The notes below the pieces were generated by a model, which was given only the letters and a program-made list of their open reading frames with translations, made no database searches and was not told the origin of the DNA. Made by a program: the position numbers and the translations under genes. A DNA stretch of 64,000 nt from Agroathelia rolfsii. Lineage: Eukaryota > Basidiomycota > Agaricomycetes > Amylocorticiales > Amylocorticiaceae. The stretch covers positions 2,976,001 through 3,040,000 of the forward strand of contig JABRWF010000008.1 in the NCBI GenBank assembly GCA_018343915.1, in the 5' to 3' direction. Below, piece after piece: positions 2,592 through 56,624 of this stretch. How positions within the stretch are numbered: position 1 is the stretch's first letter; the number at the start of each line of letters is the position of its first letter.

Positions 2592-2926
2592 TGTTACGAG
2601 TCGCTCGATGTATTATAATTTTATTTTGAATTTCTCACTATTTTTCCGAATTTTTCCTGATTTTTCTCTATTTTTTGATATATATATTGTATATTACGTA
2701 AACACACACTCTGATGACTAAGCAAGTCATGTGACCAGTCGACCATGTGACTGGCCATCATGTGACCACTAGTCATGTGACATATTATGTAAACAGAAGT
2801 CTAGAGCATGGGTCCGGATCATGACACCACTCTAACTTACTATAACTAATAATGGTGCGATATCACGCCATACTTAGCATTACTGCGCACAGACCACATA
2901 GCTGCGCACAGACCAGGTAGAATTAG

Positions 2927-2972
2927 TATATAACCCTGTAGTGCCTCTACCTGAAGACCTCAGATTCGTTCT
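2927..2972 (+). promoter_or_regulatory. LTR promoter: TATA box and predicted transcript 5' end
   Basis: TATATAA at 2927-2933 is followed 29-35 nt later by AGATTCGTTCT (2962-2972). Those 11 nt are the exact reverse complement of the PBS at 3578-3588. In Tf1-type elements the first 11 nt of the mRNA fold back onto the PBS and prime reverse transcription. Both the spacing and the match place the mRNA start at about 2962. Confidence 0.75.
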
Positions 2973-2984
2973 CTTTGTCTTCAG

Positions 2985-3045
2985 GTAAGCACAGTAGTGC
3001 TTTGTACTAGGTAGATGCTAACATAATAAAAACCTTCGTCTTCAG
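2985..3045 (+). other. Intron-like segment in the LTR (61 nt)
   Basis: Donor CAG/GTAAGC at 2984/2985, branch-point-like CTAAC at 3018-3022, and acceptor TCTTCAG ending at 3045. The length equals that of host introns in this window. The last 12 nt before the donor (CTTTGTCTTCAG) recur, with one T/C change, as the last 12 nt of the intron. Splicing is inferred. The same arrangement recurs in three other LTR families. Confidence 0.6.
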
Positions 3046-3577
3046 AGCTCTTCACCTCTATAGGCTATCAGAGCCTGTCTTCCCCCCTTTCTCTCTCTCC
3101 CCAAAAATCCTCTCTGCTCCGTGCTAGAAGGTAGCCAGTGTGCTCCGTGCTACTGGTTGTTTAGAGGACGCTTAGTGCCCCTCTACGTGAGAAGTGCATA
3201 ATACAGGTCCAGCCCATTGGGTGACCACTTGTGCTTCTGTAAACACATTCATAGTACTCAGTGTACTCAAGCAAACAAAGGCATTGCCCTGCGTTTGTCG
3301 CGGTTAAGATACATCGCACGCCTAGTGGCATACACAAGACAGTTTGTGTTCTAAGTGTAGACCTCGCTTGAAAGTCTAGAAGACTTGGAGTAAAGCTTGG
3401 TGACACAAAGACTCGAACTTGCGTGATAGCTACAACAGCGCAAGGAAGTGTACACCCGTGCATCCCTAGCCTTGGGAGTTGTAAAAAAGCCGTTACTTGG
3501 CTACCCCGTACCTTTGAGGGGTTGACGTAGGCCTAGGTTGAGTTTTGGTGACAAGAGTCAGATGTGCTCTTGACATT

Positions 3578-3588
3578 AGAACGAATCT
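3578..3588 (+). promoter_or_regulatory. Self-priming primer-binding site
   Basis: AGAACGAATCT begins 2 nt after the 5' LTR and is the exact reverse complement of LTR positions 2962-2972. The outer copy has the same site at 12534-12544. It does not start with TGG, as a site for a tRNA 3' CCA end would. Confidence 0.8.
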
Positions 3589-3974
3589 CCCCACCATTTT
3601 TCTGCGCTAGTTGCTTTGTGCACTAGAGGAGGTGTAACGAGCCTCGTTATTTGAAGCAAAAGACACATCACATACGCAAATTTAGTAGACTACCACGGAC
3701 TCTTTACCTACAAAAAGTAGTAGTTTTCAATTTCACACGTTTCTTTATTTTTGGGAAATTCTTGGCTGGCTTGCGCTTGGTGTTAGAAAACCAAGGGTGC
3801 ATCAGTTTTCACGAGCTATTAAAGGGAACGCAACCCAAGTGGATAGACGTGAAAGGCTCCGGCCGACACAAGTAGCCCATATAAAGCAAACCGTTTAAGT
3901 AGAATAGGCCTAGCTTCAAGGGCAAAAACAAATTTTTATATACAAATCCGTTTTGGGAGTCTCCAGTCTTACTG
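3589..3974 (+). other. Untranslated leader between PBS and gag
   Basis: About 390 bp separate the PBS from the gag start. A 74-codon ORF at 3651-3875 has no counterpart worth calling in the outer copy, so I treat the stretch as a non-coding leader. Confidence 0.6.
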
Positions 3975-5276
3975 TTGAGCTTGCCCACCATTTCACACCC
4001 AAACCCACCACGAGAACCCACTCCTCCTCAACCTGAGTCAGAAGAAGAATCCTCTGAAGCAGAATCATCTGAAGAGGAATCTTCTGACGAAGAAAACCCC
4101 ACCTTTTTCCCTCCGTTTCCATCCGCACACGCATCCGCACACAACTCCCCTCGCCCCCAATCACCAATGGCACAACAAGTCAACAATGCTGCCTTAATGC
4201 AGCAGCTCATCCAAAACCAAACGATGATGATGCAATGGATGCAGCAACAGGGTGAAGCACGAGGCAAGCCTAAGGAAATAGGGCATGCACCACCAACTTT
4301 CGATGGACAATGGGTTAATTACCACCCTTTCCTTCAGAAGTTTCAAGCTTACCTGGAGCTAAATCCCAGAGTGTACGTTACGGATGAGGAAAAGGTGAAA
4401 TACCTTCTGGGTTTAATGGTGGAAGGTGCCACGGCTTGGTCCAGCTTGTGGTACACCGAATTAGGACTACAAAACCGGGTACCTGGGCCCGTAACATACC
4501 AGAAAGTAATTGAAAGCTTCAAATCTTTATTTAGGGCCTTTGACGAAAAAGTAGCAGCAAGAGACCAGCTGCGTCACCTGCGACAAGGCACCACATCCAC
4601 AAGGAATTTTGGGATGGCCTTTATATTGCTAGGTAAAAGGACAGGGTTATCCGATGATGACCTTAGAGAGAAGTACCTGGAGAGGATGAACGTCAAGCTA
4701 CGACGTATCATTACAGGCTGGGATAGGGATACCTCAACCCTAACCAAGTTGATGAATGCGGCACATGACGCAGAAGTCAACCTAATGAAGGAGGAGATGT
4801 TATCCAGCAAAAGATACTGGTACAACAACAACCCCCAGTCTGACCTCCAGCGGAACAATCCTGACGCGATGGATATCTCGGCTACTATATTGGGAAGGAC
4901 ACCCAATGTATCAAAAAACCCATTCCTGAGTGCAGGTCCTGCCCAGCAGACCTCTCCGTTGCAAGTGGCTGCAACGCAAAATAATCCGACCACACAATCC
5001 AACAATCCGTTTAGGCGGAAAGACATCATCTGTTATAATTGCCAAAAGAAAGGGCATATAGCACGGGACTGTAGAAGTCCAAAAGCTGACAAAGGCAGCT
5101 CAAACAATCCTTTCCAAAAGGTGGCAGCGGCGTCAGCGCCGACACCAACATCACCACCACCACCACCAGCAAACCAGGGGCCGACAAGTAGCCCAATGAC
5201 ACAGGATGACATGTTTAACATGATCCAAGAACAAGGCCAAATGATCGCGGCCTTAAAAGACAAGCTGGGTTTTTAA
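3975..5276 (+). CDS. gag: Gag (capsid/nucleocapsid) of the inner family-A element
   Basis: An open 433-residue Gag. It has an acidic, Glu/Ser-rich N-terminus (residues about 20-42), a Gln/Met-rich stretch (about 70-92), a retrotransposon capsid region around residues 95-290, a CCHC zinc knuckle CYNCQKKGHIARDC at residues 353-366, and a Pro-rich C-terminus. Gag packages element RNA into virus-like particles. The reading frame ends at TAA (5274-5276) immediately after GGT TTT, where the -1 frameshift into pol is predicted. In the outer copy the same gene has TAG at two sites where this copy reads CAG and TGG. No interruptions were seen here. Confidence 0.92.
   Translation: MSLPTISHPNPPREPTPPQPESEEESSEAESSEEESSDEENPTFFPPFPSAHASAHNSPRPQSPMAQQVNNAALMQQLIQNQTMMMQWMQQQGEARGKPKEIGHAPPTFDGQWVNYHPFLQKFQAYLELNPRVYVTDEEKVKYLLGLMVEGATAWSSLWYTELGLQNRVPGPVTYQKVIESFKSLFRAFDEKVAARDQLRHLRQGTTSTRNFGMAFILLGKRTGLSDDDLREKYLERMNVKLRRIITGWDRDTSTLTKLMNAAHDAEVNLMKEEMLSSKRYWYNNNPQSDLQRNNPDAMDISATILGRTPNVSKNPFLSAGPAQQTSPLQVAATQNNPTTQSNNPFRRKDIICYNCQKKGHIARDCRSPKADKGSSNNPFQKVAAASAPTPTSPPPPPANQGPTSSPMTQDDMFNMIQEQGQMIAALKDKLGF
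5267..5273 (+). promoter_or_regulatory. Predicted -1 ribosomal frameshift site (G GGT TTT)
   Basis: The heptamer GGGTTTT has the X XXY YYZ form, with GGT and TTT in gag frame and the stop codon TAA directly after. Gag is in frame 0 and pol in frame -1, and the pol frame is open across this point. The same heptamer before a stop occurs in the outer copy (10845-10851) and in elements D and F. Confidence 0.75.
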
Positions 5277-5278
5277 AT

Positions 5279-8200
5279 CGGTCAGAGTATGCGGCCAATG
5301 CTACTGACCAATTTGTACAAAACAAAATGTCTTCCATTTTTACTTCTTCTTCATTTTCTATTTCTGCTTCTTCTGTACAAGGTGTGCATGGACAACACCT
5401 AAATATACCTATTATGTTCCATGGACATTTCTCTACTATCTCGGTATCGGCAATGATTGATTCTGGAGCAACCTCCACCTTTATAAATAAAAAATTCGTA
5501 GAAAAACACAATATAAAAACTTCACAATTACATAAAAAAATTCCTTTGTACAATATAGACAATTCACCAAATGCAATCGGCTTCATTTCAGAATATGTCA
5601 CACTTTTAACCCAAATTGGACAAGAAAAACGACGATTAGTGTTTCTGGTAGTAGACATCGGTACCGAGGATGTAATCTTAGGGATTGATTGGTTGAGACT
5701 AGAAAACCCCGTCATTAATTGGAAGAAAGGGAACGTAACTTTAATGGACGATTTACTAAAAGACAAGGAATACAAAAACATTAATAAAATCATAAAAGAT
5801 GAGGAATTTCCTCCAAAATTGGCAGCAACATCGGGTTTGCCACCCCAGTACCAACAACATGCCAGGGTATTCTCAGAAGCCGAGTCTCAACGATTTCCTA
5901 CTAGTAAACCATATGACCACAAAATTGAATTGGTAGAAGGAGTAGAGATGAAATGAGCCAAGGTATACCCCCTGTCAATACCAGAGTTAAAAGAGCTAGA
6001 TGCATACTTGGAGGAAAATCTGGCAAAGGGTTATATAAGAAAATCCCAAAGCCCTTATGCCTCACCTTTCTTTTTCATACCCAAGAAAAATGGAAAATTA
6101 AGGCCAATAGTGGATTATCGTCGACTAAATAATATCACTATAAAAAACTCCTATCCATTGCCGCTCATTTCCTCTATTGTTGACGGGCTCTCTAGGGCTA
6201 AAATATTCACCAAATTGGATCTACGATGGGGATACAATAACGTACTTATCAAAGAAGGACACCAAGAGCGGGCAGCATTCATAACCCCTCGAGGACTATT
6301 TGAACCCCTAGTAATGACGTTTGGTCTATGTAATGCCCCAGCCACATTTCAAGCTATGATGGACGAAATATTTGCAGACCTAATTGCACAAGGATTAGTG
6401 TATGTGTATATAGACGACATCATTATTGCCACTGCCAACCTAGAAGAACACCGACGATTGGTACACGAAGTTTTACGAAGGTTAGCGGAAAATGACCTAT
6501 TCGCAAACCTAGAAAAATGTCTCTTTGAAGTACCTGAGGTGGAATTCCTGGGGGTAATAATTAGCCACAACCGCGTACAAATGACCAATGAAAAGGTTCA
6601 AGCAATCTTAGACTGGCCTGCCCCAAAGACAGTCAAAGACGTGCAGAAATTCAGAGGTCTAGCTAATTACTACCGAAGGTTTATCAAAGGGTTCAGTAAT
6701 ATTACTAAACCCCTCGATAGATTAACTGGCAAAGGCACTTGGAAATGGGAAAAGGAGGAACAGCAATCGTTTGATACTCTCAAGAAAGCTTTTACTACTG
6801 CCCCAGTATTAGCAATATATGATCACCAAAGAGAAAGTCGAATCGAAACTGATGCCTCGGAATATGCGACTGGCGGAGTGTTCTCCCAGTTACAAGATGA
6901 CGGTGAATGGCACCCTATTGCCTTCCACTCCAAATCCATGGATGATGCACAACGAAACTATGACATCTGGGATAAGGAAATGCTAGCAATCATACGAGCA
7001 TTGGAAGAATGGCGCCATTACATTATTGGATTACCGAAACCGGTAGAGATTTGGTCAGATCACAAAAATTTGGAATATTGGGCAACTAGTCAACATCTGA
7101 GTCGACGACAAGCACGTTGGTATAGAATCCTTCAAGAATACAATTTTACCTTGTGTTACAAGAAGGGATCAACCAACGGACAAGCAGATGCCCTATCCCG
7201 ATGACCAGATTTCTATACGGAAGATTCCCAAGACAATCTCAATATCACCGTCTTGCAACCCTCCCATTTTAAAATTATGGCTTCAAAAAGAGGACATGTT
7301 TTGGTTGAAGGAGAGAAAGAGATCTTGGCAGAAATTAGACGGGAGAGCACCGAGTTGCTGGAATCCCTCTATCAAATTGTCAAGATAGGTCCACGACGGA
7401 TTACCTTAGGTCTACAGGATTGGGAAACAGAAGATGGGTTAGTGCTATATAAAGAGAAAGTATTTGTGCCCCCCAACAAAAATCTGAAAGAAAAGATTCT
7501 GGCCAAATATCATGACTCAGCACTAGCAGGACATCCGGGACGTACAAAGACGCTAGAGCTTATAAGCAGAAATTACTATTGGATCAACATGACAAAAGAA
7601 ATAAACCAATATGTAGATTCTTGCCTACTATGTCAAGCAAACAAGCCTAGCAGACAAGCGTTACCTGGATTACTTCACCCCCTCCCCGTACCAGGAAAAC
7701 CATGGGAACACGTAACCTCAGATTTGATTGTTAAATTGCCCAAGTCGCATGGGTTCGACTCAATTCTAGTGGTAGTAGATAGGCTAACAAAACTGGCACA
7801 CTTCATACCAACCAATGAAAATATCTCTGCCAAAGATGTAGCCGAATTATATGTCAAAAACGTGTTCAAACTTCATGGTACACCGTCAACATGGACCTCG
7901 GATCGTGGCCCCCAATTTGCAAGTCAGGTGATGAAAGACATACATGCTAGTCTACACATCAAAACTGCATTGTCTACAGCATATCACCCACAAAGTGATG
8001 GACAAACTGAGCGTGTGAATCAGGAGGTAGAACAGTACCTCAGGATTTTCTGCAATCATAGACAAACAAATTGGGTGGATTGGTTACCATATGCGGAATT
8101 TATGCATAACAATAGAAGAAACGAAAGCACACGCACTAGTGCTTTTGAGCTTACCTATGGTTATGTTCCAAATTGGGAAGCCAAAGATATCCAAGATCCG

Positions 8201-8830
8201 ACTCCGGGAGCCTTCAACTGGATAGAAAATGCCAAGGAGGCACGAAAGGAGGCCCAGGCAGCTTTAGGGATGGCAAGGGAGCAAATGGAACAATCATACA
8301 ACAAAGGAAAAAAGATGTTCCCGGACATTGAGGAAGGACAAGAAGTTTGGCTTAACACACGAAACCTAAAGCTTGATAGACCATCCAAAAAACTAAGTCA
8401 AAAGTGGATTGGACCCTATAAAGTACAGAAGAAGCTGAACGACCTAAACTACCAACTGGATCTTCCAAACAACCTCAGGATCCACAACGTCTTCCATATC
8501 CATTTACTGAAACCCCATCATACCTCAGATCGCCACCAAAAACCGCTGCCCCCTGTGGAAGTGGAAGGAGAAGAAGAGTACGAAATGGAAGAAGTACTCA
8601 ACTCAAGATTGCGGCGCGGAAAACTGGAGTTCTTAGTAACTTGGAAAGGATACCCAGGAGAACAAACCTGGGTCAGAGAATCTGATATGCATGCAGACGA
8701 TGCTATCAAAGATTTCTACAAGTCTAATCCAAGCGCACCAAGAAAGATCAGCGCAGCAACTTTTGGTCTCTTACCCTTTCAAATTTGGGATAACTTGACG
8801 GAATGGCAACCCGAGGCGGATTGCCCCTAA
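5279..8830 (+). pseudogene. pol: Pol polyprotein of the inner family-A element, two TGA codons
   Basis: Domains in order: aspartic protease (DSGA at residues 45-48 counted from Met 5327), reverse transcriptase (YIDDI near 6407), RNase H, integrase with an HHCC zinc region (near 7510-7640) and DDE core, and a C-terminal chromodomain (about 8560-8720) that in such elements directs integration to marked chromatin. All pieces are in one frame (5327, 6008, 7253), broken only by TGA at 5954-5956, where the outer copy reads CGA, and TGA at 7202-7204, where the outer copy reads CAA. The gene is thus recently inactivated. Translation is expected only through the frameshift at 5267. Confidence 0.92.
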
Positions 8831-8838
8831 GGAGGGGG
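8829..8838 (+). promoter_or_regulatory. Polypurine tract before the 3' LTR
   Basis: AAGGAGGGGG, at the end of pol, 3 nt before the 3' LTR. It is the expected primer site for plus-strand DNA synthesis. The outer copy has the equivalent sequence at about 42-52. Confidence 0.7.
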
Positions 8839-8841
8839 TAA

Positions 8842-9825
8842 TGTTACGAGTTGCTCGATGTATTATAATTTTATTTTGAATTTCTCACTATTTTTCCGAA
8901 TTTTTCCTGATTTTTCTCTATTTTTTGATATATATATTGTATATTACGTAAACACACACTCTGATGACTAAGCAAGTCATGTGACCAGTCGACCATGTGA
9001 CTGGCCATCATGTGACCACTAGTCATGTGACATATTATGTAAACAGAAGTCTAGAGCATGGGTCCGGATCATGACACCACTCTAACTCACTATAACTAAT
9101 AATGGTGCGATATCACGCCATACTTAGCATTACTGCGCACAGACCACATAGCTGTGCACAGACCAGGTAGAATTAGTATATAACCCTGTAGTGCCTCTAC
9201 CTGAAGACCTCAGATTCGTTCTCTTCGTCTTCAGGTAAGCACAGTAGTGCTTTGTACTAGGTAGATGCTAACATAATAAAAACCTTTGTCTTCAGAGCCC
9301 TTCACCTCTATAGGCTATCAGAGCCTGTCTTCCCCCCTTTCTCTCTCTCCCCAAAAATCCTCTCTGCTCCGTGCTAGGAGGTAGCCAGTGTGCTCCGTGC
9401 TACTGGTTGTTTAGAGGACGCTTAGTGCCCCTCTACGTGAGAAGTGCATAATACAGGTCCAGCCCATTGGGTGACCACTTGTGCTTCTGTAAACACATTC
9501 ATAGTACTCAGTGTACTCAAGCAAACAAAGGCATTGCCCTGCGTTTGTCGCGGTTAAGATACATCGCACGCCTAGTGGCATACACAAGACAGTTTGTGTT
9601 CTAAGTGTAGACCTCGCTTGAAAGTCTAGAAGACTTGGAGTAAAGCTTGGTGACACAAAGACTCAAACTTGCGTGATAGCTACAACAGCGCAAGGAAGTG
9701 TACACCCGCGCATCCCTAGCCTTGGGAGTTGTAAAAAAGCCGTTACTTGGCTACCCCGTACCTTTGAGGGGTTGACGTAGGCCTAGGTTGAGTTTTGGTG
9801 ACAAGAGTCAGGTGTGCTCTTGATA
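8842..9825 (+). repeat. 3' LTR of the inner family-A element (984 bp)
   Basis: Same length as the 5' LTR with no indels and 11 transitions (1.1%). It ends TGATA instead of TGACA. The TSD TCGAG follows at 9826-9830, after which outer pol resumes. Confidence 0.95.
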
Positions 9826-13579: not shown

Positions 13580-15468
13580 TGTCAAGAGCTGCCTTCACAG
13601 CTAGCTCGGGCGGTGCGGCGATGCCCCTGGGGTGCTAACTGCTAAGTATCAAGGCTTGCGCGCTTGACTTATCTAACAAACACAACCCCTTGTAAGGTAC
13701 GGAGGCGGGCCGTAAAGCCGGGTTTTACATGTGTTACTTGGCTAGATATTTATCAGGGACCCATGTGCTCCCGTTGCTGCTCTTTGTAATAGGGTACCCT
13801 ATTGACTACTTTGCTAGGCTTGTGATTGGTACTCTAGACGTATTGTCTTCCCATGTACTCACTTTGCATCAAATAGTTTATATAGTGTTTCTTACTGGAG
13901 ACAGGTGGCTTAGCCCACCGTGGTCTATGTTATCCCTGCAAGGACTTGTTACTGCCTTGACCAGAATGAACTGGATTTGTTTGTCACGCACAGTGCCTCC
14001 TTGTATTGAGGACTTGAAACTTAGATTGCCCTCTGATACTAGGGCTTATGTGTACACTACTTAGTTGCCATTGAGGCCTTACACTAAATAGGAGAGAGTG
14101 TGTATGGGGGTGTGGGCTAGGGCAAACAAGCCTGAAGGCGAGATGATATATTAGTAATATGTAGTAAGTACAAGAGGGGGGGATGCCCTTACCTGAAGGC
14201 AAGAAGGTCGAAGCTAAGGTTCAGGTAAGGGTTACATGCTTGTATTTATACATAAATGAAAGGGCCCGTGCGCAGCCTCGTTGGTCTGTGCACAGCCGGG
14301 GTTCATAAGCAGGAACATGTAATAATGCAGGGGCAGTGCTTTGTGACTAAGTCCGATGAGCAACCAATCGGAGTGATGAGTCTAGTACTCCTTAGTAATT
14401 GCACAGTGATCGGAATGACCCTAGTTCCTGAGTCTAGACCTTTTGATGAAAAGGAATGATCTAGACTCCACCTTCCTAATATACTCTTGTCACAAGCACT
14501 CCTGTCACGTGGGGCTAACACAGCCAGTCACATACGCATCAAGATGTCACCTGCAAGGTATTTTGTCCATATCTCAATAAATAAAAATCGTAAAAATACA
14601 ATAAAAATATGTATATGTTCGTAAAGAAACGGCGAAAAATGTCCAACTTATAACACTAAGCGGCTCACTGCTAGATGGCAGCCCTGTGGGTTCGTGGAGT
14701 CGCCTCTTCGATATCTTGGGGCCTGTGGCAATACGGGTGACGCGGCAAGCAGTCAAGCGTACGGCAGGTTGAATGGGAGGTCCGGCGAGATCAGGCGTAG
14801 AGCGGAGAGACCAAGCGGAGACGAGATAACTAGATGAGACACTTGAGGACGCTCAAGTCCATAGGTTGACTGCTGGCTATGCAGCGGGTGTAGGGCTTGT
14901 TTAGGGCGATACACACTTAATTTTCCGACTACTATAACTACTACATCAGGTACAGTACATATATACGAAGTACAGTAGTCGAGAAAATGATAAATAAGGA
15001 AAGGCAAGGAAAACAATAAAGACAATAAAGAATAGCGCGCGCCGTGCACTCTGGTAGTTGTGCCATGCTGTGTACAAAGGCGGGGGTGCGTTCCTTTGGA
15101 ACCATTGGCGGTCTAATCATCGATCAGAGCGCAATCATGGGGAAAGTCCAAGCGCGATCTTCCCAGATAGGAAGGATCTGCTAGTGCGGGCACATGGTGA
15201 CTCGGGGATTGACATCGAGAAGTCCAGTCGGCATGTGGAACGCTCTGATGGACAGAAGCGCATCGATGATGGAGAAGAAGCACGAAGGGTAGCCATGCAC
15301 ATGGCTCCGGGGAAACGTCGGCGGACACATCGGAAATGCTTCCAATGCATGGGGTATGCGGCAACTCAGAAGGGAGGGCATCGCCGGTGATTCCATTGTA
15401 GATGTTCGCGTATGTTGATGTATGCGATCGGGACGTTCAGCAGCCGGGTGTATTGGCGGGTCGTGACA
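13580..15468 (-). repeat. Family-B LTR (net 875 bp) split by a family-X LTR
   Basis: The plus strand starts TGTCAAGAGCTGCC and ends CGGGTCGTGACA, the same termini and net length as the family-B solo LTRs at 27543 and 36800. The flanks TCCCC and TGCAC do not match. About 220 bp of the surrounding B copy are missing at the junction, so this is not a simple insertion. Short ORFs inside are not genes. Confidence 0.8.
13647..14655 (-). repeat. Family-X solo LTR (1,009 bp), TSD CTAAG
   Basis: On the minus strand it starts TGTTATAAGTTGG and ends TTGATA. CTAAG flanks it at 13642-13646 and 14656-14660. It contains a TATAAATA box and, downstream, an intron-like segment (donor CAG/GTAAGG, branch TACTAAT, acceptor GCCTTCAG). 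Confidence 0.85.
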
Positions 15469-15966
15469 TGCACCCCCACCTTCGTGCACAGCATAGCACG
15501 ACTACCAGAGCACGCGGCATGCACTATTCTTTATTGTCTCTATTGTTTTCCCTTCATTTCTTTATTTATCATTTTCTCAACTACTGTACTTTGTATATAT
15601 GTACTGTACTTGATGTAGTAGATACAGTAGTCGGAAAATTAAGTATGTATCACCCTAAACAAGCCCTACACCCACTGCATAGCTAGCGGTCAACCTGTGG
15701 ACTCGAGTGTCCTCGAGCATCTTGTCTAGTTTCTTCTTTCTAGCTTGACATCTCTCACTCTATGCCTGATCTCGCCAGACCTCCTGCTCAACCTGCTGTA
15801 TGTTTGACTGCTCGCCGTGCTACCCGTATTGCCGCAGGCTCCAAGATATCGAAGAGGCAACTCCACAAACCCACAGGGCTACTATCTGGCAGTGAGCCGC
15901 TTAGTAGTTAGTGCTCCCGGGGTATTGCTGCACTGCCTAGGCTAGCTGTAAAGGCAGCTCTTGATA
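15469..15966 (+). repeat. Family-B LTR 3' part, plus orientation
   Basis: Continues the B copy of 13532-13579 after the inverted copy. It ends CTCTTGATA (CA decayed to TA) and passes directly into element D pol. Confidence 0.8.
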
Positions 15967-19401: not shown

Positions 19402-20676
19402 TGTCATGAGAAGGGAATTTTTACTGATTTTTCGGTTATTTTCTTGTATTATTTGGACAATTATTTAATTAGTTATTGAATTTTCTTTACTTTTCTTTCT
19501 CTTTTCTTATAAAATTACCCCTTTAGGGCGTGGACTATGGGCAGTATAGAGGTCATGTGATTGGCCCTCACATATACCAAGCCACACATCACAGGAGTAA
19601 TCTCGGGGCTGTATGCACTTCTATTTCACTATCACGCACAGCCTGGGAACACAGCCTTCCCTTCCTGAACAATTCCTAACAATTACTGGTATCGATCCGG
19701 AAACGGATCTCTACACGGATGCCTGGTGGAGTTAGGGAAAAAGTTCTTCCCCTACATTGCCATCTTTATGCTTCTATCTTCCTCTGTACACAGACTACCA
19801 AGGCTACATATGGACTCTTCAGTAGTAGTATAAAAGATACATGTAACTTGTCCTAAAAGGCCAGCTTCGACCTCTTCGCCTTCAGGCAAGTAAAAAAAGG
19901 TTTTTGTATTTCCTATGTAGAGATTACTAATAAAACACTTTGCCTTCAGGATAAATTCCTCAGGCCTAGGCCCTTTATCCTAGCCCCTTTTCTTCTCTCT
20001 CTCCCTCTCTTTATTACTTGTAGGTAGTGCAAATCCCCTAAACGTGTGTGTGAAGCTTTAAGAGAATTGATTAAGTACGAGATAAGAAAGTACCCAGCCC
20101 CTCTTCAATAAGATATAAGAGTAGGGTATCTGTGGGAACACTCGTACTTAGGTACTTCAGAAAACTTAAGTGTTGAGAGGTGTATTATTTGGCTTAGCAT
20201 ACAAGTAGGCTCTCCACGCCCAATGTTGTAAGGTCAAGGAGTATACCCTTGACATTAGGTCAAAGCTACCAGGTTTCCCTCGGACTTCCACGGTCTGAGA
20301 AGGCAAGAGTAACGATCTTGCACAAAGAGCATCATTTTCAAATCTTTATTATGTATACATTTCTGAGTGCATAAGGAATAAACTACTTTGGAAAGCAATT
20401 ATGTGTGGCCCTCTAAAGCCCATTTACAACTCCATCAAGACAAGAATAATGTGTACATTCCACGTGATTTCTTGGCTATATCCAAAGCGCAATACAAACC
20501 TAAACCGTTTGGCGTTCTAGGAGTCCTCCTTGAGGATTAAAGTTTATTATTCCTAAGTGCAAGTAGCACCTTTTCCACCCCTCCCTGCCATTATATTTTT
20601 TTGTGTGATTTTGCATGATTACTATACGGGCAAGCTCTAGCCCCTGACGAAGAAGAAAAATTCCCTTCTCATGACA
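19402..20676 (+). mobile_element. Family-E insertion with an inverted U3 end (LTR + leader + inverted terminus)
   Basis: A full family-E LTR (19402-20254) is followed by TT, an 11-nt PBS (20257-20267), about 390 bp of leader, and then the exact reverse complement of the first 21 nt of the LTR (20656-20676). TTTCT flanks the whole unit at 19397-19401 and 20677-20681, so it integrated as one piece with two U3-type ends. A normal 3' LTR end is absent. Confidence 0.85.
20257..20267 (+). promoter_or_regulatory. Self-priming PBS, family E
   Basis: AGGTCAAAGCT lies 2 nt after the LTR. Family-E LTRs contain AGCTTCGACCT, its reverse complement except for one CpG-type change, downstream of a TATA-like box. 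Confidence 0.7.
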
Positions 20677-21047: not shown

Positions 21048-22783
21048 TATCAAAAGCTTCCTTTACAGCTAGCTTGGGTAGTGCGGCAATACCCCTGGAG
21101 CGCTAACTGCTAAAGCTGCTCACTGCTGGATGGCAGCCCTGTGGGTTTGTGGAGTCGCCTCTTCGATATCTTGGGGCCTGTGGCGATACAGGTATCATGG
21201 CAAACAGACAAGCACATGGTAGGTTAGTGTGGGTGTTCCAGCGAGATCGAGTGTAGAGCAGAGAGATCAAGTAAGAAGGGAGTAACTAGATGAGACACTT
21301 GAGGACGCTCGAGTCCACAGGTTGACTGCTGACGATGCAGTAGGTGTAGGGCTTGTTTAGGGCTAAACACACTTAATTTTCCGACTACTGTATCTACTAC
21401 ATCAAGTACAGTACTATATACTAGAATATAGTAGTCGCAGAAAGATAAATAAAGAAATGAAAGAAAACAATAAAGACAATAAAGATCCAGCATGCACCGC
21501 GTGCTCTGGTAGTCGTGCCATGCTGTGCACGAAGGCGGGGATGTATTCCTTTGGAACCATCAGTGGTCTGATTGTCAATTAGAGTGCAATCATAGGAGAG
21601 TCCAAGCGCAATCTTCCCAGATAGGAAGGATCCGCTGGTGCGGGCATATGGCAACTCGGGGATTGACATCAAGAAGGTTAGTCAGCATGTAGAATACTCT
21701 GATGGACAGAAGCGCGCTGATGATGGGGAAGAAGTATGAGAGATAGTCGTGCATATGGCTCCGGGGAAACGTCAGCGGACACATCGGAAACACTTCCGAT
21801 GCACGGGATATATGGCGACTCAGAAGGGAGGGCGTTACTGGTGATTCCATCGTAAGTATTTTGTCATGAGAAGGATATTTTTGCGGATTTTTTTCGACTA
21901 TTTTCTTGTATTATTTGGACCTTTATTTAATTAGTTATGGTATTTTCTTTCCTTTTTCTTTATTTCTCTTATAAAAATTACCCTTTAGGGCGTGGACTGT
22001 GGGCAGTGTAGTGGTCATGTGATTGGCCCTCACGTGTTCCAAGCCGCACGCCACAGGAGTAATCTCGGGGCTGCGTGTACTTCTATTTCACCATCACGCA
22101 CAGCCCAGGAACACAGCCTTCCTTCCCTGAGCAATTCCTAATGATTACCGGTATCGGTCTGGAAACGGATCTCCACACGGATGCCCGGTGGAGTTAGGGT
22201 AAACGCTCTCCCCCTGCATTGCCACTTTCATACTTCTATCTCCCTCTACGCATAGACCATCCATGCTGCGCACGGACCATTATAGAATAGTATAAATAGT
22301 GCATGTAACTTGTCCTGAAGAGCTCAGCTTCGACCTCTTCGCCTTCAGGCAAGTAAACCCCAGGTTGTATTCTCTCACATAGATTACTAATGAAATCTTC
22401 GCCTTCAGGGTATTTTCTTGTTGGCCTAGGCCCTTACGTCCTAGCCGTCCCCCCCTCTCTCTCTCTCTCTCCCCTCTACTGGAAGGCGGTGCAAATCCCC
22501 TTACGCGTGTGTGTGTGAACTTGAGTATAAGACGATCACGTGAGAGTTAATAAAGTACCCAGCGCGCCCTCAATAGACAAAGGGATTTGCGTATCTGTGG
22601 GAACCCTCTTACGTGGGTACTTTAGTACTTAATTGTTTAAGGAGTATATTATTTGATTGTGTGCACAAGTAGGCTCTCCAAGCCCAACGTTATATAGTCA
22701 AGAGTGTACCCTTGACATATTTGTGAATATCAATGTGTGCGATTGGGATGTTTGGTGGCTAAGTACGTTGGCGGGTTTTGACA
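21048..22783 (-). repeat. Family-B solo LTR (net 875 bp), TSD GGTGC, split by a family-E LTR
   Basis: GGTGC is present at 21043-21047 and 22784-22788. The left end is decayed (TATCAAAAG for TGTCAAGAG). Removing the E insertion and its duplication leaves 875 bp, as in other B copies. Confidence 0.9.
21862..22717 (+). repeat. Family-E solo LTR (856 bp), TSD TATTT
   Basis: Starts TGTCATGAGAAGG, ends ACCCTTGACA, and is flanked by TATTT on both sides. It contains an intron-like segment at 22349-22408: donor TTCAG/GCAAGT, branch TACTAAT at 22385-22391, acceptor GCCTTCAG. A 13-nt repeat (TCTTCGCCTTCAG) borders both ends. Confidence 0.92.
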
Positions 22784-28607: not shown

Positions 28608-29044
28608 AATGTCAAGGGATCACTCTTGACTATGCAGAGATAATCAAAGTAACCTCCTGCCACTAAATAAAAGTACCTAAGTTGCAAGTTTTCCCACACT
28701 ACACAAACCCTTTTATCTATTGAGGGTGGTAAGGGTACTCTGCTTACGCCTTACAAAGCTTCCGGAGACTTAAGTTGGAGGGGAACGGAGGTTCCAGAAC
28801 TTCCAAATCACGCATCACGCGTCTAACTAAGTAATCTAGGGAATTTCACCCTACTAATTGAATTTGTTGTTGTGCTAAGACACTGGGCTAGGCCCGGAGG
28901 TAAATGATCCCTGAAGGCAAAGTTAATTGAGTAATTCTAAGAGAAATATAAACACTAAATACTTGCCTGAAGGCAAAGAGGTTAAAGCTGGCCTTTCAGG
29001 ACAAGTTACATCAACTACTTATACTACTACAAAAGCTCCACACT

Positions 29045-31135
29045 TGTCATGAGAAGGGAATTTTTGCCAATTTTTTGGCTATTTTCTTGTATTATTTGGA
29101 CAATTATTTAATTAGTTATTGCATTTTCTTTCCTTTTTCATTTTATCTTAAGAAAATTACCCTTTAGGGCGTGGACTGTGGGCAGTGCAGTGGTCATGTA
29201 ATTGGCCCTTACGTGTTCCAAGCCGCACGTCACAGGAGTAATCTCGGGGCTGCATGTATATCATGAGTTGATCTTATGGCTTATCTTGTTCTCCTGATTT
29301 TTCTATATTTTCTATCATTTTTCTTGAATTTCTACCTTTTGATTTGAGTGCATAGGCTTTATTTCTTTATTTTGGTTTATTGCTGCTTTTTTTATATGGT
29401 ACTGTACTTCATTTGGGCTTGCTTCCTGATCTTCTGATGTACATCATTGATTTGCTTCTCCCATCTTTGATGCTTCTTCTATCATTGATCTTTCCTACAC
29501 TGTACTTCTGTTCTAACTCCTCTGATCCTTTCTCTTTCCTTTCTTCTATTTCCCTTGATGTGGAGTTAAGGACTATTCTTAGAGTACTTGTAAACAGTAT
29601 ATAGAGGCCTGCCCTTGGGGCCTTTGCAATCCAGCTTGACCACCTTTTGCCCTCTGAGTCATTCTCACTCACACCTGAAAGTTCTTATCTCCCACTCTCT
29701 CTCTTGTGTGTTTTACCCCCCCCCCCATCATCATCTTTGAATTGTTATACCTGGACCTCAAGGTTAAGGGGATATGCTATGACTCCATGCTCTAAGGGAG
29801 TATAATACTGAGTGAAAGCATGTGTCACCATGATGTGTGAACATGGACTCCTAGGATCAGGGAGTATAAAGAATTGTGTCTAGTCCAAGACAGCATGTCC
29901 TATCTGGCAAAGGGACTTTAAAGAATACCAGTGATTATATGTTGCATGGAAGCCTTCATGAAACAGTGGGAGACCTTGCCTCTAAGTCTTTAAACATAAG
30001 TTGCACCTCCCTACTGGGGGAGATTAAAGATATCAGTAGTACCCCCCCCCTTTGCCTAGCCTTCCCAGGCTAGATGTGTTTAGTTGGTTTGAGTCATGAG
30101 TGACCCATGATATTTGGTCAAGCTGGATTGCAAAGGCCCCAAGGGCAGGCCTCTATATACTGTTTACAAGTACTCTAAGAATAGTCCTTAACTCCACATC
30201 AAGGGAAATAGAAGAAAGGAAAAAGAAAGGATCAGAGGAGTTAGAACAGAAGTACAGTGTGGGAAAGATCAATGATAGAAGAAGCATCAAAGATGGGAGA
30301 AGCAAATCAATGATGTACATCAGAAGATCAGGAAGCAAGCCCAAATGAAGTACAGTACCATATAAACAAAGCAGCAATAAACCAAAATAAAGAAATAAAG
30401 CCTATGCACTCAAATCAAAAGGTAGAAATTCAAGAAAAATGATAGAAAATATAGAAAAATCAGGAGAACAAGATAAGCCATAAGATCAACTCATGACAGT
30501 GTACTTCTATTTTCACCATCACACACAGCCCAGGAACATAGCCTTCCTTCCCTGAGCAATTCCTAACGATTACCGGTATCGGTCCAGAAACGGATCTCCA
30601 CATGGATGCCCGGTGGAGTTAGGGTAAAAGCTCTTCCCCTGCATTGCCACATTTATGCTTCTATCTCCCTCTGTGCACAGACCATTAAGGCTGCGCATGG
30701 ACCCTTTAATAGTAGTATAAATAACACATATAACTTGTCCTGAAGAGCTTAGCTTCGACCTCTTTGCCTTCAGGCAAGTAAAGGTTTTGTATTCCATAGA
30801 AAAAGATTACTAATAAACTTCGCCTTCAGGGTATACATCTCTCAGGCCTAGGCCATTGTCCTAGCCTCTCCCTCTTTCTCTCTCTCTCTCTTCTATACTT
30901 GGAGGCAGTGCAAATCCCCTCACGTATGCGTGTGAAACCTAAGAGCATCAAACATAAGCAAGCTAAGAAAGTACCCGGCTATGCCCTCAATAGAATAAGG
31001 GTCATAGTGCTTGTGGGAACACTTATTTATCAGTACTTTGTTAGATTTAGTGTTGAGAGGAGCATTCATTGTATTTGAAGTTATTTATGGGTGTTGACCT
31101 GCAATTGCATCAAGTCAAGGAGTGTACCCTTGACA
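29045..31135 (+). repeat. Family-E solo LTR (net 846 bp), TSD ACACT/GCGCT, split by the C insertion
   Basis: Starts TGTCATGAGAAGG and ends ACCCTTGACA. The two duplications differ by two G-to-A changes, both at CpG positions. The LTR is interrupted at 29259-30498. Confidence 0.85.
29259..30498 (+). mobile_element. Snapback family-C insertion: LTR + PBS + inverted U3 (1,240 bp)
   Basis: A full C LTR (29259-30112) is followed by TT, an 11-nt PBS (30115-30125), and then the reverse complement of the U3 region out to the U3 terminus. The right arm 30115-30498 is 384 bp and mirrors 29259-29642, also 384 bp: U3 plus the first 11 nt of the transcript. The arms are about 99% identical. ATGTA and GTGTA flank the unit. 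No internal gene or second LTR is present. Confidence 0.92.
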
Positions 31136-37770: not shown

Positions 37771-38417
37771 TGTTGAAATGGCAATCCATTGCTATAGAGG
37801 ATTGGAGTAACAGAGTCATGGTTATGCACAGTATAACTAGGCCTTTAGAGTAGCCACATATTGTAGTATATACCTTATTTGTTTGTCTATGTACTATGTC
37901 TATATACAATAACAAGCAGATACCTTCAATGGCATATTTCTAGCTTTTTGCTTTAGTCTTGGCTGGCTGGCTAACTTGCTTTTCTCATACTAAATACCTT
38001 GTAGTATATAGAGAAGGCACATTATGCCTATGCAATATAATAGTTTATTTATCCTTACAGTAGCCTTAAGCCCTAAGTACAAGTACAGTAGTACTAAGTA
38101 GCACTTTGTATTTACATACATAAGCTCTTTCCTGAGTAAGTAAACAGTGCACCACTATGGTGGCATACCACTTTCATACTGCTACACAGATTTGTTTGTG
38201 TGAGAAAAGCAAGCTAGCCAGCCAGCCAAAACTAAAGCAAAAAGCTAGAAATATGCCATTGAAGGCATCTGCTTGTCGTTGTACATGGACGCAGTACGTG
38301 GACAAATGAATGAGGTACATACTATAATGCGCGGCTACTCTAAAGGCCTGGTCACGCTACGCGTGACCGTGACTCCGTCACTCCAATCCTCCATAGCAAT
38401 GGATTGCCATTTCAACA
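37771..38417. repeat. Inverted pair of family-I LTRs of element K
   Basis: A plus-oriented LTR (37771-37989, 219 bp, ending TA) and a minus-oriented LTR (38199-38417, 219 bp) face outward with their U3 ends, separated by 209 bp of PBS-proximal sequence. A polypurine tract precedes the left LTR. The outer flanks GGGTG and AGTAT do not match. Confidence 0.75.
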
Positions 38418-52625: not shown

Positions 52626-55600
52626 TCAAACTTCCAACAAACCCTTAAGCCTGTCGATCAAGTAATTATCATCCAAGCTTTCCAGCCATTTGAATTTAGC
52701 TGCTCTTGCTCCTAAATTCTCAAAGCACGCGGGTGGTAAAACTATTCCTCCGTCACTTTGATGGTAGAGAACAATGTCTTTGATCGTCTCAATGTCGCCC
52801 TGTGTCACAATTGCTTTCAATAACGTCGCGGCATGTTCGTCTTCTTCCAAGGGCCCATGAAGATCGGGCCATATCGCACAGGCAAGATGATGTATTGCCT
52901 GGAATCGTACGAAACCCTGTGGATGTTCCTTAAGTAATGACCGTAGATAAGCGCCCAATATTTGATTATCGACCTCCCGAGGCCAGAGATATTCGGATAT
53001 GTCGCTCGTCACAACTTCCTCTATAGGTATGCGTATCGTTTTGATGATATGGCCAAAGTCGTTCCATAAATATCGTCGATAATCAACTGGATACCGCAGC
53101 GAGGTCGGAGGCAGGAGTAGTTTGGCAAATAAAGGATCGGCGAAAGAGACGGAATCGTAGAGAGCCACGAAATCCGTATAGTATTGATAGAACGGCGTGG
53201 CCGTACCGAGGAAGCGCACGGCAACCTTTTCGAGATCAGTGCTATGAGTGGATGCAAGACCCTTCCCAAATACGAACGGCGCCAACAGATCGTTGATGAG
53301 CTCATGCACGTCTTTATCCCTGAAAGTCTCCTGCGAGCTATTTGCGACATCGTGTTCGAGCATGAAGACCTTCATGCATCCGAAGACGATCTCTTCTCTC
53401 GATAAAGCCAAGGTTAACAAGCTATATCGACGAAGCACTTCCCAGCTGATTCTGGATAGCAAGAGAGATGCACGCACAACTTCAACCTCGTATGTTTCAG
53501 GCTGGGAGGATGTCGTCGCTAGCGCAGGCGATGTACCGGCACGAAGTAGATACTCTATAGGGGAGAAAGTCCAGTCACGAGGTAAAGGTAGCCTGCTGAC
53601 AAGTTGCCCCTTTTCTGTTGGTCTAGGTAATGCTTGAAGTATCGACATCCGCTGCGTCGTGGACTTCTGAACAGATTGAGAAGATGATATGCGTGGGGCG
53701 ACAACATGGCCATCAGTGTCCCGCACTAGATACACCAGTAACGAACGAATAGCCTTGAGGCCGCCACTTTGCCAGATTTCGGGAGATATCCTCCATCCGT
53801 GAATCTCAGCTTGAACAGGGGTGACAAAATCTATTAGCGAGTCGATAGCATACAATGCAACAGTTTCGTCTCCAGGGATCAACCGTGGAAGTACGGATAA
53901 GGCCTGCGCCATCCAGAGATCTTCAGAAATACCTGGTAATCTTCGGGACATGATAAGGTATACCGACAGGAAGTTCGTCAAGGAGCGACGTGCTACGAGT
54001 ACCGTCGGTACAGGAGTCGATTCAATGTAGAACCATAACGAATGGGAGACTAATTCTGCTGCCAGCTGAGATATTTGAGCAAACGGCAGTGTGAAAGGGG
54101 GATCTCCAGAGAGGTATCCATCTATTTGTAGTGGAAGACAGGCGAGCCAAAGCCGGATACTGCTACTGATAATATCGATATGGGAAGCAAGCGTCTTGAG
54201 CGTCTTCAATGCTGGGCTCTGGGGGGAAGTCAGAGGGATAGCGGGTGACTCGCTGAGAGCGTCCAAAGAAGAGCGCAGTTCCTCCATCGAAGCAGATAAA
54301 ACCTTGGCTTGGATGCCATCGGCAAACGCTGGGCGTATATGCTGAAGTACAGCAGCTCTTTCATTCTCACCACCTCTCACCCCGTTAATTCTGGCCCCTT
54401 CAAGATGTGACGCCAGGACGCTCCAGACCCCCTTCCAGAGAGACGTGTCGAAGGGGCCTAAGGAACCTGCCCATTCTATGACCTCTTCATCCCATCCCCA
54501 TGCGACAACCTGACTCCACAGAATTTCATGTTCTGGAGTCGTACAATGAGGGTCAATGGCGCAGACGATCCAAACACTCAAGAGATCCAGCCAAGCCTCC
54601 TTCAACCTCCTGGCCTTGCATTGGGAAGAGCGTATGTATTGGCTTAGACGAATGAATTCCAACGATGCTGTCGCGGCGGTGTGTGTGTACAAACCATATG
54701 CAGCTAGCGTGGCATACAGTCGAAGAGTCTCAGCAGTAAGCAAAGACGCAATACTTGCGGGCCATGGCGATGCTTCTGGAAGGACGGCTACAAATCGTAA
54801 AAGAGGGCTGATGGACTCCAGTAAACCCATAGCATTCTGCCTCGAAGATGTAGTGAGCGTGATGAGTAGCTGAATGGCAACCGGATTCGGGCCAGTGGGA
54901 AGATTTTCGGTGTGAGAGGACAGAAGGAAGATTTTCACAAAATTGTTGACAAGGCCTTCGGTGGTAACAATGGCCGTAGCGACAGTATTATCATGCTGAG
55001 CCAAACGATGCACGATCGACAACAGCTGGGTAAGGGACTCGAGAGGCAAAGCTCTCGCACCAACAAGTTTGGAAATCTGCGGCAAAATGAAGTCCAAGGG
55101 AAGAGACGAGATGAGATCCGTATCGCGACTTGGTTCTATGCGCAGCTCCACTCCCTCTACATTAGTGAGATGTTGGTCCCAGCCAACAATGCATTCCCAT
55201 ACGACGTTAATAGCGCGAGCCCCGAGACCACCGCGTTCACTTAGTGCCTCAAGACCGGTGGCAATAATCCTGCGTCGTAGTTCCTCCTCTTGACCACTCA
55301 ACTCCGGGATGATATCCTCCATGTAACCTTGCAAGCCTCTCCATAGCTTTCGCGTCAAACGTGCCAGCAGGTCTAACATGGTGACACGCTGCGCAGGCAC
55401 CGTGGAGCGCGTGAGCAAGAAGATATCATCAAGAGTGTAGCCCGCGTGCGAGCCCTCGGCATGATGGTGGAGGCCTAGATGCGTCGGTAGTGAAAGCGAC
55501 AGATCGGATGGAATGGGCGTTCCCGTCAGATCGAACCTCAAGTCAGAAGGCGCAGGGCCGGAAGAAGGTTTGTTTTCCGGGCTCTGTACGCCTTGTATCC

Positions 55601-56624
55601 AGGCAAGGGCTTCCTTGCTAGTGGGGTCATCAGGCGAAACGTGCGGGAAATATTTCCTTCGAATGTCTTCAGGAGTGCCTTCATCTGGGCCCTTATCGGT
55701 GCCATCCGTATCATCAAACGGAGGCGAGACAAAGGGCGGTTCGGCGGCTAATTTGCCTTTGAATTGCCCAATAGAAACAACCGAGTCATCATTTTTATCT
55801 GGAGGGGGTAATGCCAAAGGCCGGCGTTTGGGAGACGGTGGAGCAGACTCGTATACGTGCACGTCCTTCTCGGTGATATCGGCAAAACGTAACTTTTTTG
55901 GTGTGAGAGCACCGCTGGTAGAGGCAGCTGTTTGGATGAAAGTATGATGTTCATGCGAAAACAAATTACATAGCGTCAACGAGAACATAGATGACCAGAC
56001 TTACGAGACAGACTACGGACACTAGCAACATGAGGGTCGATTTTAGGACTCTGGTGATCACTGGCTTATTTTATGAGGAACCAGTGATAAGCTAAAAATA
56101 CAGGAAATTGTCCTCGGCAACTCACAATTCTGCCCATGAGAAGGTTCTTCAGGATCACCAGCAGTCCGTTCCAGCCTCTCACGCGCTCGTCGCAAGATAT
56201 CAGCAATTCCGGGGCCAAATTGCTCAAATATCTGCTTTCTCTCTTCTTCACGTTCTTCTTCTGTCATATCGGCCACTCTAGCCTCGTTCTCTGCGGACAT
56301 CTGAGCCCTCCAGTCAGGAGATTCATTTTCGTTGCTGCTAAAAACGAGCGAAGGACGGATCTCAGCAGAGGGTGCGGCCGGGTTTTTACTTTGAGCTTTT
56401 TGACCAGAGATGGCTGGCGGAATGACCGATCGCGATTGTGGCTGCTCCGTGACATTCGTTTGCTGTTGTTGTCTCTGCTCCCTTGCTCGCGCAAAAGCGC
56501 TTTTCGACCTATGCTGTGCCGACGGAAAGCCTGTCCCAGTCGGACGTCTGAAAACGCTTGACTCAGAAGGGGTTGAAGAGGGTTTTCGCTCGAAGACAGA
56601 TCCGACAAGATCCTTTGAAGTCAT
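52626..56624 (-). CDS. RPAP1-like RNA polymerase II-associated protein
   Basis: Three exons (56624-56126, 56064-56005, 55927-52626) encode about 1,286 residues. The first exon carries the family N-terminal region, with an acidic helix (MTEEEREEERKQIFEQFGPG) before ADILRRARERLE. The large exon holds the second conserved block (LRFDLTGTPIP, then HHHAEGSHAGYTLDDIFLL and QRVTMLDLLARL). The remaining 900 residues are helical, Leu-rich repeat-like sequence. The family (human RPAP1, yeast Rba50) links RNA polymerase II subunits to assembly and nuclear import factors. The phases of all exons agree and no break was found. The sequence between the two relics and this stop codon is under 45 bp. Confidence 0.88.

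Follow-up and report, generated by a model that had tools for sequence, protein, structure and literature searches.

LTR-PBS-inverted-U3 insertions in Agroathelia rolfsii as probable by-products of self-priming reverse transcription

In a 64,000-nt stretch of the Agroathelia rolfsii genome (contig JABRWF010000008.1; hereafter, the window), we identified a single 1,240-bp insertion at positions 29259 to 30498 that consists of an 854-bp LTR of family C, TT, a PBS, and an inverted U3 running to its exact tip. We refer to units of this kind as snapbacks. The window unit is confirmed as real. Its anatomy, the break at the PBS, the exact U3 tips, the TSD, the empty site, the arms that are nearest to each other, and the recurrence of the arrangement in a second family are all directly visible in the sequence. 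We interpret the unit as a by-product that arose while a self-priming (Tf1/sushi-type) LTR element was being reverse-transcribed: plus-strand strong-stop DNA would have folded back, been extended, and gone into the target with a 5-bp duplication; we put the probability of this reading at roughly 0.85. The evidence base is two snapbacks in one genome, the second of which was found by a targeted search.

Anatomy, insertion, and relatives of the window unit

The LTR of the unit spans positions 29259 to 30112, and TGGTCAAGCTG starts at 30115, leading into the inverted arm. The parts, in order, are as follows.

29254 to 29258, no strand: left TSD, ATGTA, placed by the empty-site alignment
29259 to 29632, plus strand: U3 of the LTR, 374 bp, its border with R set by the end of the PBS pairing
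29598 to 29604, plus strand: TATATAG, 35 nt upstream of the putative transcript start
29633 to 29642, plus strand: initial 10 nt of R, AGCTTGACCA, the complement of the PBS
29643 to 30112, plus strand: remainder of R plus U5, reaching the LTR end, taken as one block
30113 to 30114, plus strand: TT spacer between LTR and PBS, identical in families E1 and F
30115 to 30124, plus strand: PBS, TGGTCAAGCT, 10 nt
30125 to 30498, minus strand: reverse complement of the entire U3, 374 bp, to the exact U3 tip (...TCATGACA)
30499 to 30503, no strand: right TSD, GTGTA

The unit has one LTR and an inverted U3 in place of a pair of direct LTRs that enclose internal DNA and a PPT. Its arms are 384 nt long and identical at 380 of 384 positions (4 differences). 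A repeat finder recovered the same arms, and the bases outside either arm mismatch at once, so the arm length is exact. The U3 tip of this unit reads TA; that of other copies reads TG. The initial annotation had described a complete family C LTR, TT, a PBS, and an inverted part of the LTR reaching the U3 terminus, with 384-bp arms bounded by ATGTA and GTGTA, and all of these are present. It had also given the PBS as 11 nt, which holds for 10 of the 11 bases; the 11th, the G at 30125, is templated by U3.

This assignment comes from comparison with relatives. Internal sequence beside a family C LTR is kept in two copies (on contigs C1 and C5), recovered by a search that returned seven places, four of them with no family C LTR nearby. 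Both copies read TT, TGGTCAAGCT, then C, whereas the snapback has G after the PBS, as in U3. Since C follows the 10-nt PBS in both, the G appears to have been copied from the last base of U3. In addition, the R starts compared read CAG..., and the PBS pairing ends at the A, which makes this A the likely transcript start, the family C primer 10 nt long, and base 30125 a copy of U3. On the sequences compared, transcripts are likely to start at the A of AGCTTGACCA in family C and at that of AGCTTTGACCT in family F. Five relatives on other contigs with G after the PBS were read; one has an exact R match, with a T before its A.

The target of the window unit is a repeat of which uninterrupted copies are present at positions 21963 to 22357 and 19501 to 19895. 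When the joined flanks are aligned to these two empty sites, a 5-nt gap falls at the insertion point, which indicates that the unit was inserted whole, with a 5-bp duplication (ATGTA/GTGTA, one mismatch). Taken alone, the window LTR is flanked by ATGTA and TTTGG, not by a TSD at both ends as a solo LTR would be. As a control, we examined 12 other full family C LTRs without a PBS, of which eight have a perfect 5-bp TSD, two have one mismatch, one has two, and one has four. The snapback lies within an F-like LTR (window region 29044 to 31000), and weaker outer inverted repeats at 28960 to 29035 and 30704 to 30780 are apparently two F-like LTRs in opposite orientation.

With up to three mismatches allowed, the 37.7-Mb genome contains the 30-nt snapback junction a single time and a reversed-pattern control not at all. 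Family C has 88 R-start places in the genome and 54 U3 ends, the latter obtained from 67 matches to the U3 pattern by removing 13 from another LTR family. An R start pairs with 39 of the 54 U3 ends, and the other 15 have none at the expected distance. These 15 are the snapback and 14 others (4 full LTRs and 10 cut elsewhere), each of which we inspected; none of the 14 is broken at the PBS. The window arms differ from each other by 1.0% and from nine other LTRs by 2.3 to 6.3%, and only one variant is common to both arms yet absent from those nine.

The parent of the unit appears to be a self-priming, non-autonomous element. The copy on contig C5 runs from an interrupted 5' LTR and the PBS, with 1,225 bp between the LTRs in which no gene is evident, to a purine tract and the 3' LTR; its flanks are CTGGT and CTGGA, and its U3 has diverged. 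Matches to the family C U3 end are confined to contigs C1, C4, C7, and C8, and R-start matches are found on all 8 contigs. This looks like two four-chromosome sets (C1, C4, C7, and C8 versus C2, C3, C5, and C6) with different retroelement histories, and the genome is perhaps hybrid in origin.

Self-priming families and a second snapback

We scanned for 10-mers that follow an LTR-like end and have their complement upstream, a design that reports matching pairs only. The scan found two further TT-spaced families, E1 (PBS AGAACGAATCT) and F (PBS AGGTCAAAGCT), both with an 11-nt PBS. A control scan of reversed letters also matched, 4 times in the window and 23 times in the loci, so the evidential weight lies on recurrence across copies and on the constant TT spacing. 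Complementarity between PBS and R, taking the RNA start as placed above, is 10 nt in family C and 11 nt in E1 and F, always after TT. At one locus (L022), PBS and R share the same change, within a scan restricted to matching pairs. In predicted folds of the leader RNA, the 5' end pairs with the PBS in all six sequences, with pairing probabilities of at least 0.96 for inner pairs and 0.40 to 0.89 for end pairs. Searches of the window for tRNAs and against Rfam gave no matches.

Positions 2592 to 9825 of the window hold a full-length Tf1-type E1 element, with 984-bp LTRs (11 differences) and the TSD TCGAG/TCGAG. Above Pfam cut-offs, E1 has a zinc knuckle, protease, RT, RNase H, H2C2, integrase core, SH3_Tf2-1, and chromodomain; gag falls just below. 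By these predicted domains, E1 is of the Tf1 lineage and has a chromovirus pol with a chromodomain; family C has no evident gene. Named matches to its RT include basidiomycetes and frogs, plus one bacterial metagenome label. Among eight long ORFs of the window searched against Pfam, the only clear host-gene match was an ORF at 52626 to 55988 (minus strand) with domains of RPAP1 (RNA polymerase II-associated protein 1).

If snapbacks arise from self-priming, other self-priming families should yield the same arrangement, so we searched for it in E1 and F. The family F PBS-type pattern occurs at 176 places, and among the 100 listed, one runs into an inverted U3 with zero mismatches; a unit with exactly three mismatches could fall among the remainder. 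This second snapback (L065, 679 to 2015; C7:4106616-4107952) consists of an 830-bp LTR, TT, AGGTCAAAGCT, and an inverted U3. Its U3 is 494 bp, both arms are 505 bp (U3 plus the 11-nt PBS), and it has a perfect TSD, CTTCC/CTTCC, the empty site being supplied by Y-family LTRs of the window. The arms differ at 19 of 505 positions, all by transitions and with no indels; against the arms, three other F copies show 29 to 31 transversions and 4 to 5 indel runs, and a fragment neighboring the snapback diverges by 7.1 to 7.6% over 170 nt.

The initial annotation had proposed a search for further LTR-PBS-inverted-U3 units with attention to arm length and TSDs, and in this genome family F supplied one, with an arm of U3 + 11 and a perfect TSD. 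The proposed rule that the arm equals U3 + 11 holds for family F (494 + 11) and fails for the window family (374 + 10). An arm equal to U3 plus PBS length, U3 tips at both ends, and a TSD around the whole unit were found in both units. The chance of one exact match would be approximately 1 in 850 if the break could fall anywhere in the LTR, a figure that measures precision and is no test, the F case having been sought.

Snapbacks are infrequent: 1 of 54 recognized family C U3 ends, 1 among the 100 listed F-pattern places, and 0 of 47 E1 places. In the search for E1 snapbacks, none of 48 places (47 of E1 type and 1 of F type) led into an inverted U3, and the F2-type junction had no match in the genome. 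A RIP-tolerant search of the genome recovered the known F snapback and no second one. Scoring covered 40 of 162 candidates in one list and 40 of 401 in another, and none of the five that were read among 11 other listed places with G after the PBS was a snapback. Places of the F pattern with AGCC or AAGC after the PBS were considered as decayed snapbacks; the three read (L066 to L068) are ordinary internal sequence.

Two other inverted pairs in the window were rejected as snapbacks. In the Y-family pair at 13580 to 15966, the inverted piece directly adjoins the end of the LTR; neither TT nor a PBS is present, no TSD was seen, and the arms are 18% different. Its joint is perhaps of the autointegration type, and an insertion of ~1 kb, bordered on either side by CTAAG, is nested in the Y-family LTR there and splits it. 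The pair at 37771 to 38417 has no TSD and no PBS break; its LTR-like end is of another kind (TGTTGAAA...), and a purine-rich stretch precedes the left copy.

Fold-back of strong-stop DNA and alternative origins

In the mechanism that we propose, plus-strand strong-stop DNA (U3-R-U5-TT-PBS) would copy the RNA primer last and so end opposite the primer's first nucleotide. Because the PBS is complementary to the element's own R, such DNA can snap back: its 3' PBS would anneal to the R start of its own strand or, in a variant, to that of a sister strand packaged with it, instead of transferring to the minus strand. RT would extend the annealed 3' end through U3 to the 5' end of the strand. Fold-back and extension to the strand's own 5' end would produce the order of the parts, the break at the PBS, the exact U3 tip, and the U3-templated base after the PBS. 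The second family, with its PBS break, U3 tips, and perfect TSD, supports the self-annealing of strong-stop DNA that the initial annotation had suggested.

The hairpin would be made double-stranded, giving a U3 tip at both ends. Since a single-stranded hairpin has one open end, this calls for a second-strand step, which is unproven; our guess is that another PPT-started strand might switch onto the inverted arm. Integrase would insert the DNA with two U3 tips and generate the 5-bp duplication (no intermediate was seen), and insertion by integrase is compatible with the TSDs and the exact U3 tips. The enzymes would presumably be supplied in trans, family C looking non-autonomous. The choice of strand, the annealing, the double-stranding of the loop, integrase as the agent, and the trans supply of enzymes are the steps that we infer, and a DNA fold estimate places the required PBS/R pairing in only 6 to 11% of the ensemble. 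It follows from the logic of the model that this class would be specific to self-priming elements.

A route with no DNA fold-back could also account for the PBS break seen in the two families: a U3-containing RNA (a read-through transcript or the 3' end of the genomic RNA) would pair with the PBS and be cut by RNase H at +10/+11. The minus strand would then start on a U3-bearing primer, and the plus strand would later copy that U3. This route seems improbable to us: alone, it leaves the exact far stop at the U3 tip unexplained in both units, such RNAs starting elsewhere.

The TSDs bear on an origin in the chromosome, in which an already integrated element would fold back or switch template at its 10- to 11-nt PBS/R homology while the host replicates or repairs its DNA. 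Fold-back at short homologies is a known event in yeast DNA repair (PMC11724301). Such an event would, however, invert the left flank, whereas at both loci the right flank is collinear with the target and the TSD encloses the unit, which makes this origin scarcely credible.

A similarly slight chance attaches to two opposite insertions followed by a deletion, or to an inverted assembly artifact. Adjacent inverted solo LTRs do exist, and the inverted pair at L021, rejected as a snapback candidate, is made up of two that have separate TSDs. The window LTR lacks such a TSD, and the PBS would have to be struck exactly in two families. Moreover, the arms are mutually nearest yet carry private differences (4/384 and 19/505).

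Implications and comparison with known systems

We found no report of an LTR-PBS-inverted-U3 insertion in a literature search that covered few subscription papers. The by-product was predicted from first principles and then found again in another family. We incline, by a small degree, to the broader view that the whole class of self-priming retroelements, in fungi as in vertebrates, has a built-in side reaction in which strong-stop DNA snaps back to give an integrase-competent mini-element with two U3 tips. If this is true, host genomes preserve snapback LTRs as fossils at low frequency, each with a break that locates the primer end to the exact base, and small-RNA silencing of the parent could draw on their long, almost perfect inverted arms. 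The units would offer genome-written evidence of the plus-strand strong-stop end and of a self-primer length of 10 nt in one family and 11 in another, and DNA with two U3 tips is apparently integrable. The arrangement can serve to search any assembly for self-priming elements, and it cautions against taking every LTR with an inverted U3 behind it for two insertions.

Long terminal inverted repeats and a TSD are features that snapbacks share with Foldback and MITE-like elements; here, however, the repeats consist of retroelement U3s, each of the two units turned up a single time, and on this reading there is no transposase. The family C parent, which we liken to small non-autonomous LTR elements of the TRIM/LARD type, resembles these in the C5 copy, with its LTRs, PBS, purine tract, and 1,225 bp without an evident gene. 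The snapback differs from that type in having no second direct LTR and no PPT, and it should be unable to start a new cycle. Like a solo LTR, it has a complete LTR, a 5-bp TSD, and no internal genes, but it adds TT, the PBS, and the inverted U3. Because the TSD encloses all of these parts, the snapback did not come from LTR-LTR recombination.

Three sources describe related self-priming systems: Tf1 is primed by its first 11 bases, with an RNase H cut after base 11 (PMC7175516), the Tf1/sushi group and its leader fold are described in PMC10085805, and Tj1 in PMC4600332. Compared with Tf1/sushi chromoviruses (self-primed; Tf1 of Schizosaccharomyces pombe), the snapback is different in having one LTR, no coding region, no PPT, and an inverted U3 at its end, and the self-complementarity of family C is 10 nt rather than 11 nt. 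It agrees with them in the LTR-adjacent PBS complementary to the putative 5' end of its own RNA, in the 5-bp TSD, and in the LTR tips TGTCA...TGACA, and the neighboring autonomous family, E1, carries both a Tf2-type SH3 domain and a chromodomain.
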